Shown here in pieces: positions 26,839-30,021 of a stretch of DNA of 30,021 nt. Under the pieces are notes generated by a model, which was given only the letters and a program-made list of their open reading frames with translations, was not told where the DNA came from and made no database searches. The position numbers and the translations under genes were made by a program. The stretch is taken from the IMG/VR virus record IMGVR_UViG_3300047678_000199, positions 1-30,021 of that record; one strand, 5' to 3'. Numbering within the stretch: position 1 is the stretch's first letter; each line of letters begins with the position of its first letter. Source of the stretch: a virus.

Positions 26839-28244
26839 CTACCATAGCCAGCACGCCAACCACTTGGACTGTGTCGCACAACTACGGCGCGTGGGACAAA
26901 GCGCTGTATCTAGGCGGGCCGCTGATAGTCACCGGCAGCGGAATGATCCAGAACATCGGCTTCGATATCTCGGGATGGGATTTCTCTAGCAGCTTTAAAG
27001 CGCAGGTGTATCGGGCCGCGACCAATACCGTTTGCGGCACCGCCGTGTTTACATCAGCGGATGGCGTTGGTCGGAAATTGAAGGCATTAACCACGCCGTT
27101 TGCCTATGCGGACGGCGAAGGGTTCTACATTGAAATCATCGGCAACGGCGACGTAACCCTATTGGGTGATGACGCGGAAGCCTGGGCCTTACGCACGCAC
27201 CCAGGCACATTCGCAGCGCCGCCAACAACTATTAATCCCGTGGAGGGCGGCGATGGCCCCGATGGTTCCTATGGGTTTTTCGCTCTGCTCGATGGCACGC
27301 CCAGCGGCGGCGGATCGACGACGGCCGTTGCTGCAATAACGGAGAGCGGCCGCGATGCTGTCAGCTCGGCCGTGGCGGCTAAAGCAACCGGCACATCGGC
27401 GATCACCGAGGCTGGCGCGGACAGCGTTTCGTCGTCGGCATTTTTAAACTCCGCATACAAGATGCAGCAGTTCGCGATTCTTGCGTCTTTCGTGCAGACC
27501 GGTATCGACTCTCTCGGACACGCACTCGTCGGCACACCGGTTACTGGTGATCAAATATTGCTTCCGACCGATGATGGGGCAGGCAACACGATTACGTGGG
27601 AAGTGGACGGCGGAAGCCATCCGAGCCTGCGTATCGCCTCGATGGCGGGCAGTGGCAATGCCGCGAACCTGCCTTACAAGTATTTCAACGGCAGCCTCTG
27701 GCTCCAGGGTACGTTTTCCACAAACGCCGGGACCATTGCACCGAGTACCGGCGCGGTGGCCAATATCACTGAGGCAGGCCGTGATTCGGTTAGCTCGACC
27801 GGGAAATCTCTCGCGAGCGGTTTGGGAGCTGCTCAGGAAGGTGGGCGCGACTCCGTCAACGCTTCAGCGACCGTGGGCGGTGCAGGCGCACCGTCAATTT
27901 CGCTGGCCGTCGTGTCGAGCGGAGAAGAGTACACGTTCACAGCGACAGCAACGGACGATGGCGGCGTCGTCTCCGTACAGTTCTTCGTGAACGGCATCGC
28001 TGCGTCCAGCCCGCTGACGAGCGCACCGTGGGTGTGGCAGTGGAACACTAGCGGCCTGCAGGCCGGTAACTACAACATCAGCGCTCGCGCCACCGATGGA
28101 GACGGCAACACGTCCAACTCCAATACGATTCAGGTGGCAGTAGTTCGGGAAGGTCAGCCGACGCAGGGAGCGCCGTTTGCTCGCGCGGGGCGCGCGACGT
28201 TCGTTCAGAAAGATTCGACTTGGTGTCAGATCACTGAAAAATAA
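26835..28244 (+). CDS. Modular tail protein with ExGRDSVSS repeats and an Ig-like domain
   Basis: A 469-residue protein in three parts. Residues 1-155 are beta-rich with no match. Residues 160-345 are a linker with four motif copies: ITESGRDAVSS (168), ITEAGADSVSS (190), ITEAGRDSVSS (311) and AQEGGRDSVNAS (333), plus a possible divergent FVQTGIDSLGH at 219. They frame a beta domain at 240-300. Residues ~353-437 are a bacterial Ig-like domain (TATATDDGGVVSVQFFVNGI, then GNYNISARATDGDGN). The C-terminus is RATFVQKDSTWCQITEK. Probably a surface-binding tail component encoded with the beta-helix protein. Confidence 0.6.
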   Translation: MTTIASTPTTWTVSHNYGAWDKALYLGGPLIVTGSGMIQNIGFDISGWDFSSSFKAQVYRAATNTVCGTAVFTSADGVGRKLKALTTPFAYADGEGFYIEIIGNGDVTLLGDDAEAWALRTHPGTFAAPPTTINPVEGGDGPDGSYGFFALLDGTPSGGGSTTAVAAITESGRDAVSSAVAAKATGTSAITEAGADSVSSSAFLNSAYKMQQFAILASFVQTGIDSLGHALVGTPVTGDQILLPTDDGAGNTITWEVDGGSHPSLRIASMAGSGNAANLPYKYFNGSLWLQGTFSTNAGTIAPSTGAVANITEAGRDSVSSTGKSLASGLGAAQEGGRDSVNASATVGGAGAPSISLAVVSSGEEYTFTATATDDGGVVSVQFFVNGIAASSPLTSAPWVWQWNTSGLQAGNYNISARATDGDGNTSNSNTIQVAVVREGQPTQGAPFARAGRATFVQKDSTWCQITEK

Positions 28245-28246
28245 AG

Positions 28247-28321
28247 CGGGCGGCCTGGTGCAGCGCTAACTGCCTCAGACCACTCGTCACATGTTGAGAT
28301 GTGAACAAGCCGAAGGCCCGC
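28247..28321 (+). other. Nested inverted repeats after the tail genes
   Basis: Immediately after the last tail gene, gcgggc (28247-28252) can pair with gcccgc (28316-28321), enclosing a perfect hairpin tcacat-gttgag-atgtga (28287-28304). There is no T-run, so it is not a typical terminator; it may end the late operon in another way or be a binding site. The rest of 28322-28373 shows nothing I can name. Confidence 0.3.
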
Positions 28322-28373
28322 CGCCGTGTACACAGCGCGCGCAGCCTATCAAAGCAATCTGCAATAACGCCTC

Positions 28374-28402
28374 TTGACATGCGACTCAGCGACATATAAA
28401 TT
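28374..28402 (+). promoter_or_regulatory. Sigma70-type promoter for the 28594-29260 gene pair
   Basis: A perfect -35 TTGACA (28374-28379) is followed by TATAAA (28395-28400) after 15 bp, or TAAATT (28397-28402) after 17 bp. The surrounding sequence is AT-rich compared with neighbours. Transcription would begin near 28408-28410 and leave a ~185-nt leader. A strong vegetative promoter here suggests expression from the prophage independent of the late activator. Confidence 0.6.
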
Positions 28403-28532
28403 GAGCAAAGAGTCTGACAAGCTCCAAAGAGTAAGGGTGGGAATCCGTTGTGTTATTCCGCATAATCCGGCAAGCCGGGAGAGCGGTGAATACAATACCT
28501 TCGGGGAATAAACCCGGGCCTCCCTCTTTGGG

Positions 28533-28563
28533 CCTTGTCAACTCCCGGCGCCTTCTGACAAGG
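28533..28563 (+). promoter_or_regulatory. Hairpin in the long 5' leader
   Basis: ccttgtca (28533-28540) pairs perfectly with tgacaagg (28556-28563) around a 15-nt loop. It lies in the ~185-nt leader between the promoter and the 28594 gene, 18 nt upstream of that gene's AGAGGA ribosome site. It might control translation or transcript stability. A smaller CCGG-CAAG-CCGG hairpin lies in the same leader. Confidence 0.4.
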
Positions 28564-28593
28564 GCATCACGACAGAATCAAAGAGGAAACACC

Positions 28594-28830
28594 ATGTCCG
28601 CTAGCATCGTTCGCGACCCAATCCAACGCGCTGAGGCAACCGTCAAGGCGCTCAATATTTTTGTTGATCTTCTAAACAACTCGAAGCCGGAAAAGAAAGT
28701 GTCCGCAAACGACACCGGGCACTTGTTTGGATTCTTTTTAGATGGCCTCGACGAGACCGTTCGTGAGATTAAGCAGGGTCCCAAAAAGCCCTCTCTAAGT
28801 ATCATTAGGGAGCGTTTAAATGGGGACTAA
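28594..28830 (+). CDS. Small protein of unknown function upstream of the MuA-domain gene
   Basis: A 78-residue soluble helical protein (DPIQRAEATVKALNIFVDLL, then GHLFGFFLDGLDETVREI) with a basic Lys/Pro region (KPEKKVS; KQGPKKPS) and no known motif. AGAGGA lies at a good distance before the ATG; a longer in-frame ATG at 28450 would translate the leader and is not favoured. The gene overlaps the MuA-domain gene by 11 nt, so the two form an operon and may act together. It could be a partner or regulator of that protein; this is inference from coupling only. Confidence 0.65.
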   Translation: MSASIVRDPIQRAEATVKALNIFVDLLNNSKPEKKVSANDTGHLFGFFLDGLDETVREIKQGPKKPSLSIIRERLNGD

Positions 28831-29260
28831 GCGATCCGTCGTCAGCGCTGATCAAAGGCTGGCGGCGGTGAGCGAGGCGCTCGCCCTAATCAAGGCTGGC
28901 GCCCCACCTGGCGAAGCTATGACGTCTGCTGGAAAGGGGGCTGGGGTATCGCGGCACACCATGTACAGATGGTATGGACTTGTACGGGGGCAGCCGAAGG
29001 CCAAGTGGCTGCAGCTGCTCGATCCGGGCGCAAGCTACGGGCACCGAGGCGGCCAGTTTTCGTACGCCGAAGGTGCCTATGAGTTCTTCAGGAAGGTGTA
29101 CCTTAAGAGTTCGCCACCCTCGCGGAAGGAGGCGTATTCCGCCTTGGTGCTGGAGGCCAAGAAGCATGGCTGGGCGGTGCCAAGTTTGCGCACCCTTGAG
29201 CGCAGGCTGCAGGCCGATGACAAGGTGCCGGAGCGGACCCGCTACGACGCTGACCTGTAA
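28820..29260 (+). CDS. Stand-alone MuA-type end-binding domain protein (no catalytic core)
   Basis: A 146-residue protein that resembles the N-terminal DNA-binding part of Mu-family transposases. The first helix-turn-helix is at about 30-55 (GAGVSRHTMYRWYGLVRG). It is followed by the WLQLLDPGASYGHRG link, then EGAYEFFRKVYLKSSPPSRK, and a second helix-turn-helix ending KKHGWAVPSLRTLERRL. In MuA these are the I-beta/gamma domains that bind the phage ends. The DDE catalytic domain is absent: the gene ends and a terminator follows at once, so it is not a visible frameshift. It could bind phage ends or a related operator and block or regulate transposition. The role is inferred. Confidence 0.7.
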   Translation: MGTKRSVVSADQRLAAVSEALALIKAGAPPGEAMTSAGKGAGVSRHTMYRWYGLVRGQPKAKWLQLLDPGASYGHRGGQFSYAEGAYEFFRKVYLKSSPPSRKEAYSALVLEAKKHGWAVPSLRTLERRLQADDKVPERTRYDADL

Positions 29261-29282
29261 GGCGCTTTCGGGCGCCTTTTTT
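29259..29282 (+). terminator. Rho-independent terminator after the MuA-domain gene
   Basis: aaggcgc (29259-29265) pairs with gcgcctt (29272-29278) around a 6-nt loop, followed by a T-run to 29282. The stop codon's last bases form the base of the stem, so it directly ends the two-gene unit. Confidence 0.9.
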
Positions 29283-29335
29283 CATTGCAATCTACCTGTC
29301 CAAGCACCCTAATCTATGTGTCGCGCTACAGCTTT

Positions 29336-29369
29336 GCCCAAAAACAAATGGCGCCCTGTGGGCGCCATT
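29336..29369 (-). terminator. Minus-strand rho-independent terminator
   Basis: aatggcgcc (29347-29355) and ggcgccatt (29361-29369) form a 9-bp stem with a 5-nt loop. Read on the minus strand it is followed by tttgttttt (29338-29346), so it would stop transcripts coming leftward from the tRNA-fMet side. Confidence 0.8.
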
Positions 29370-29398
29370 GATTACTTCTTCAGTTTTGACACAGCCTG

Positions 29399-29454
<56 letters not shown>

Positions 29455-29533
29455 CCGGCCGTAAGGCCGCCAAGGTAAAAAGCGAGCCCGACACGTACTT
29501 GCGGTGAAGTGCCAGGCAAATAAAAAGGCCAGC

Positions 29534-29630
<97 letters not shown>

Positions 29631-29697
29631 TCAAAACTGGGACTACTGGTAAGGCCTGTTCGCTGGTTTTTGTTGCCCGGCGATCAAGCAGGCGCGC

Positions 29698-29726
29698 ATG
29701 ATACGAGCGCATCCCGCCCGCGTCAA
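29698..29726 (-). promoter_or_regulatory. Promoter of tRNA-fMet
   Basis: On the minus strand, TTGACG (29726-29721) and TATCAT (29703-29698) are separated by exactly 17 bp. A GC-rich discriminator (gcgcgcc) follows, as expected for a stringently controlled stable-RNA promoter. It lies about 68 bp upstream of the tRNA 5' end. Confidence 0.85.
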
Positions 29727-29890
29727 GAAGAAATGCCGGCATCGCCGCTCTCTCCGCAACTGCTGAGCAGATGGCGACCGCAGGTGCTCAAGCCCTGATC
29801 ACTCGGGTGGATGAGGCGGCGGCAGGTGACGAAGTTGCCGCAATCCGGTAAGGTTCTGCGCCGTTCCAGCCACAGGATTTTTCGAGCACG

Positions 29891-30021
29891 ATGAGCGACC
29901 CGTTTGCGGATATTCGACCCTATCACGACGCCGAGGTGACGCCGGTTCTCGAGCGTCTGCTGGTCGACCGGGAATTTCTGGAAACGCTGGCGAAACTGCG
30001 CCAGCCGAAGCTGACGGCCCG
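29891..30021 (+). CDS. N-terminus of a probable glycerol acyltransferase-family protein (partial)
   Basis: An open frame from ATG 29891 to the end of the window (43 codons). The start FADIRPYHDAEVTPVLERLL (residues 5-24) followed by EFLETLAKLRQPKLTA resembles the N-terminal region of gammaproteobacterial 1-acyl-glycerol-3-phosphate acyltransferase-like proteins, whose catalytic HX4D motif comes further on and is outside the window. The gene is host, divergent from tRNA-fMet. No ribosome site stands out. The 29631-29890 interval otherwise holds only the tRNA promoter. Confidence 0.5.
   Translation, partial: MSDPFADIRPYHDAEVTPVLERLLVDREFLETLAKLRQPKLTA

Follow-up and report, generated by a model that had tools for sequence, protein, structure and literature searches.

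The window, as the stretch of DNA analyzed here is called throughout, corresponds to a 30,021-base IMG/VR record comprising Mor and the late region of a Mu-like prophage. The contig begins at Mor, the early region of the prophage, with any true MuA, lies outside the window, and the left end and the transposase are absent from the contig. On its right side the prophage is followed by a chromosomal tRNA-Met and then by the start of a gene that we take to be acyltransferase-like, which places the sequence no more finely than in a gammaproteobacterium. The features present 3' of the last tail-fiber-like gene are, in order, a promoter-like site, a structured leader, a 78-amino-acid (aa) open reading frame (ORF), a 146-aa ORF, and a terminator (Table 1). 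Further along, the 3' end of the tRNA-Met and part of its terminator occur at both 29399 to 29454 and 29534 to 29589, as a perfect direct repeat of 56 nt with copies 135 bases apart; it resembles an attachment-site scar beside a prophage, which is unexpected for a phage that moves purely by transposition. Between the operon and this tRNA duplication, at 29347 to 29369, lies a strong hairpin (AATGGCGCCC/GGGCGCCATT) that runs into T-rich DNA on the minus strand.

Table 1. Features of the right-end operon in the window
Feature	Position	Strand	Evidence
Promoter-like site TTGACA-17-TAAATT, upstream of the whole unit	28374-28402	+	1 found versus 0.6 expected by chance (weak)
Upstream target copy (a1 b1-like): TGACAAG 28415-28421, CCAAAGAG 28424-28431	28415-28431	+	Complementary to RNA
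RF02221 (sRNA-Xcc1) leader RNA, full length	28474-28557	+	cmscan, independent model R1
Antisense arms in RNA: CCTCTTTG 28523-28530, CCTTGTCA 28533-28540	28523-28540	+	Two-segment match test
Downstream target (a2 b2-like): TGACAAGG 28556-28563, CAAAGAGG 28579-28586	28556-28586	+	Complementarity to RNA arms
78-aa ORF, probably helical, Icd-like position	28594-28830	+	ORF list, phmmer
146-aa MuA-like end-binding protein, without I-alpha and DDE domains	28820-29260	+	Pfam, PHROG, phmmer, tblastn, structure
I-beta-like HTH, about residues 10-72	28847-29035	+	Alignment, fold
I-gamma-like HTH, about residues 81-135	29060-29224	+	Pfam, phmmer, fold
Intrinsic terminator overlapping stop codon	29259-29282	+	Stem 29259-29278, stop = TAA

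The first-pass annotation had described the 146-aa protein as the two helix-turn-helix (HTH) units with which MuA binds phage ends, without the DDE catalytic domain, and searches by profile, sequence, and structure bear this out. The ORF matches HTH_Tnp_Mu_2 in Pfam (PF09039, Mu I-gamma; E = 1.5e-12), the Mu transposase in PHROG (5e-14), and, over residues 10 to 135, chain 4fcy_A of the Mu transpososome by phmmer (E = 8e-9). Its AlphaFold model (mean pLDDT of 79) matches 4fcy (E = 6e-6) and, domain by domain, the I-gamma nuclear magnetic resonance structure 2ezh (TMt of 0.73) and the I-beta structure 2ezk (TMt of 0.55), the relative orientation of the two HTH domains being uncertain in the prediction. 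Pfam thus recovers I-gamma and misses I-beta, which is seen by alignment and fold. Identity is 26 to 31% to most of the aligned phage MuA proteins, 20% to Pasteurella MuA, and 39 to 41% to the nearest proteins found; conserved residues are retained in the alignment, and the protein starts and ends close to MuA domain borders. What is present is the I-beta plus I-gamma end-binding unit of MuA. The DDE domain is absent from the ORF and from the window, where tblastn with two complete MuA proteins as queries detected no further MuA pieces; the early region is outside the contig. Pfam gave no antirepressor family match for the protein.

Single-protein scans of viral and genome collections revealed no close relatives of the 146-aa, 78-aa, or gp47 proteins. 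The earlier suggestion that the same gene pair be sought in other Mu-like prophages yielded nothing: profile searches of draws of 399 and 369 genomes, partly overlapping, found no homologous stand-alone pair, and the exact pair is known from one sequence. The first alignment had been too diverse to serve as a search query. The two draws gave two short PF09039 frames with a make-up unlike the 146-aa gene, both rejected as the same gene. One of these, G694, resembles a broken TnsB/MuA-like copy. The other, G618, a 198-aa ORF on the minus strand (L098:1450-2046), combines an I-gamma-like end with an unrelated N terminus and lies upstream of a full MuA; it is possibly another stand-alone end-binding regulator.

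The arrangement around the 146-aa gene is largely as first annotated. The stop codon merges into the terminator stem, and the 78-aa gene is coupled to its neighbor, overlapping the 146-aa start by 11 nt, with a Shine-Dalgarno sequence before each gene. The TTGACA promoter proposed upstream is indeed there, at a match quality for which a single occurrence is not rare by chance. In a small, preselected set, the 78-aa ORF is weakly similar by phmmer to the first genes of two other units of the leader RNA family described below, L124 and L174 (2.5e-4 and 2e-3). Codon-usage scores of both ORFs are clearly above those of other frames and below those of the late genes, and because of the latter, the unit may have been acquired recently.

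The structured leader, also part of the first reading, matches the RNA family RF02221 (sRNA-Xcc1) over its full length with 48.3 bits (E = 4.6e-7) by cmscan. This score stays under the Rfam gathering threshold of 53 bits, as do those of many of the family's matches in genomes. An independent model, R1, from 22 copies in other genomes with the window left out, again covers the leader at full length, with 59.1 bits (E = 2e-10). Covariation among these 22 copies supports the family structure: 96% of cells are paired, and the covariation score of 0.387 was reached by none of 500 shuffles, with slid versions scoring at most 0.10. By itself, the window RNA has an unremarkable folding energy (z of -1.4), and the family model is the better evidence. 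The C4 family of Rfam, RF01695, was not reported at an E value of ≤5 in positions 28200 to 30021, nor at ≤1 in four relatives. On sequence and covariation, the leader is a member of a real RNA family, RF02221.

Complementarity between the leader and its own operon was assessed with a two-segment perfect-match test, as base composition spoiled plain duplex energies, which proved a poor antisense measure (median z of -1.3; window, -1.5). The two arms of the RNA are perfectly complementary, over 8 + 8 nt, to CAAAGAGG and TGACAAGG, respectively, and CAAAGAGG contains the Shine-Dalgarno sequence of the 78-aa gene. In the predicted fold, the first arm is mostly in a hairpin loop and the second is largely unpaired. 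A match of this extent arose in 1 of 5,000 shuffles and in none of 757 other pieces of the window; for the upstream target copy, which matches over 8 + 7 nt, 15 of 5,000 shuffles were as good. Across RF02221 loci, a double antisense match at P ≤ 0.05 against shuffles was found in 52 of 76, with about 4 expected if deeper kinship among the loci is ignored, and a significant match was absent in the remaining 24. Comparison with non-cognate targets served as a control for general complementarity to Shine-Dalgarno sequences. Cognate matches averaged 12.5 nt summed versus 8.8 nt for non-cognate ones (deeper kinship again ignored), at least 12 nt was reached by 75% of cognate and 4% of non-cognate pairs, and 52 of 75 loci lay within the top 5% of their own non-cognates. 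The window, with a sum of 16 nt, was equaled by none of 74 non-cognate targets.

Antisense control of the operon by the leader RNA is well supported by these sequence comparisons, and since the RNA and the 78-aa gene's ribosome-binding site are complementary, translation of the gene pair is probably repressed in the lysogen. This bears on the idea that the 146-aa protein is a dominant-negative inhibitor of transposition or an immunity factor, made in the lysogen, that binds phage ends and blocks the MuA of related Mu-like phages. Retention of exactly the end-binding unit, with its conserved residues and with the catalytic domain missing, is what such an inhibitor would look like, but a ribosome-binding site complementary to the leader RNA runs contrary to steady lysogen expression, and we regard this explanation as unlikely. 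Dominant-negative action as such is compatible with antisense control and could be the effector's mode of action.

A terminator-like hairpin, CCGCACCCGNCAG...GCGGTTTTTTT, recurs at eight other loci (L111, L114, L115, L118, L119, L126, L137, and L138), where it separates the RF02221 RNA from the upstream copy of the target. It is missing from the window and could be an attenuation step in the flanks that have it.

RF02221 occurs in 25 of 369 gammaproteobacterial genomes, next to integrase, terminase, phage primase, replication, tail, and head genes at several loci and to ordinary host genes elsewhere. Two scans of IMG/VR by core sequence pattern gave at least 157 distinct viral units, at least 148 of them with ORFs. 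Among the matches listed, an antirepressor-family gene is present within 700 nt of the RNA in 116 of 148 units (Bro-N, 46; KilA-N, 24; P22AR, 18; Rha, 13; AntA, 11; ORF6N, 4), a share of 78% that applies to pattern-selected units and is not an unbiased frequency. These genes were counted by similarity to a few in-sample representatives, themselves confirmed by Pfam. The antirepressor gene sits directly after the RNA or behind a small ORF, its start being more than 160 nt downstream in 13 of the 116 units. In L209 and L214 the RNA is followed by a small ORF and an overlapping antirepressor, the same order as in the window with its MuA-like product, and another unit (L142:7401-8255) lies between tRNA-Leu and phage tail genes, the same placement as in the window. 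No second MuA-like product was found among the 157 units listed. A locus with Mu-like head genes by reading of its ORFs, L205, has the RNA followed by an 84-aa ORF and a gene for a 253-aa protein whose N terminus is a MuB-like HTH (blastp, 2e-10). Assignment of the antirepressor-like middle part of that protein to P22AR_N was rejected, the blastp similarity not being significant.

Antisense matches are also present at the SymE-type loci L112, L135, and L136. That RF02221 stands ahead of SymE-like genes and of small genes of no known kind, and of symE in integron cassettes (PMC12444791), would suit a moron, such as a cell-division or defense gene, that merely uses the RF02221 leader. The preponderance of antirepressors in the listed viral units and the identity of the second gene in the window, a phage transposition-control domain, argue against such cargo, and we find it rather improbable. 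Slightly less probable again is that the ORF is an N-terminal MuA piece left by deletion or derived from another prophage, as might be supposed from the phage homologues examined, each a complete MuA or annotated so, from the lack of an orthologous stand-alone gene in our searches, from the nearby tRNA-end duplication hinting at rearrangement, and from the decayed look of G694, but opposed by an ORF that starts and ends near domain borders with its own Shine-Dalgarno sequence and terminator, by its place in a pair of overlapping genes preceded by a regulatory RNA whose targets match, and by the lack of any other MuA piece in the window. The original view that the layout belongs to a maintained gene, as opposed to random decay, is supported, as is that of a separate transcription unit with a structured leader and a coupled partner gene.

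The reading that we favor, with a probability of roughly 0.6, is that the right end of the prophage carries a C4-like operon under antisense-RNA control, with the 146-aa gene as its second cistron, and that the product of this gene is an antirepressor-type effector. The MuA-like gene is placed in the antirepressor position because RF02221 units share the c4-icd-ant layout. By analogy with C4 of P1, the RNA would be released from the leader transcript and pair with its target, so that in the resident prophage translation of the 78-aa gene would be blocked and, through coupling, that of the 146-aa gene as well. The proteins would be made once the RNA is absent or outrun, upon entry into a nonlysogen or upon induction. 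The 146-aa protein, as a two-HTH DNA binder, could then occupy end-like or operator-like sites and disturb the repressor or transposase of a Mu-like phage. Its antirepressor-type action, suggested by fold and gene position, is the least certain step; the protein may disturb a repressor, compete with MuA at the ends, or both.

A broader proposition, to which we would give even odds, is that RF02221 is a widespread C4-like antisense immunity RNA family of gammaproteobacterial prophages, each member tuned to its own operon, and that Mu-like phages have recruited DNA-binding parts of transposition proteins (MuA I-beta-gamma in the window and the MuB-like HTH in L205) as effectors that counter the repressor or transposase found in related phages. 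The operon layout hints at sRNA-Xcc1 as a phage immunity RNA. This would offer a concrete, testable function for an Rfam family so far seen as a virulence-linked Xanthomonas sRNA and a Xylella vesicle RNA, placing it alongside phage antirepressor control, and would present a transposase domain as a separate product under what resembles immunity-type antisense control. If the neighboring ribosome-binding site is the true target, published sRNA target predictions may need rethinking.

Among known systems, domain I-beta-gamma of phage Mu MuA is like the window protein in the sequence and fold of the end-binding unit, whereas the window protein lacks I-alpha, DDE, and the C-terminal domain and is encoded at the right end. 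The anrP gene of the Salmonella prophage Gifsy-1 encodes an antirepressor. Gifsy-1 has the order IsrK - orf45 - anrP, in which a short RNA activates translation (PMC4825925); a prophage small RNA and a small upstream ORF are shared with the window, but the RNA is a different one, and that of the window is proposed to block translation.

The RNA sRNA-Xcc1 of Xanthomonas is 88 nt long with mapped ends (PMC2996969), lies upstream of symE in integron cassettes (PMC12444791), and is present in a Xylella island (PMC12189769). The window has an RNA of the same family at an equally short spacing to the next gene. The papers found treat sRNA-Xcc1 as a virulence-linked, trans-acting sRNA and mention no antirepressor or phage immunity role, and in the open-access literature no paper was found that names it together with antirepressors; earlier recognition in subscription papers is possible. 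Other C4-type families in Rfam are RF01695, c4-2 (PMC11701678), and c4-a1b1 (PMC2864571). In P1, C4 is cut from the c4-icd-ant leader; it folds into three stem-loops and has a pair of short arms, of which one covers the ribosome-binding site (PMC5320573, PMC8198154). C4 belongs to the immI operon of P1 and P7, where it undergoes RNase P processing, and the window is likened to it from sequence layout. The window differs in having an RNA of another Rfam family than RF01695 and a MuA-like second gene in place of the antirepressor Ant; it resembles c4-icd-ant in its short structured leader RNA, in the pair of arms whose complementary target covers the first gene's ribosome-binding site, in the small size of that gene, and in a second gene that occupies the place of the antirepressor.
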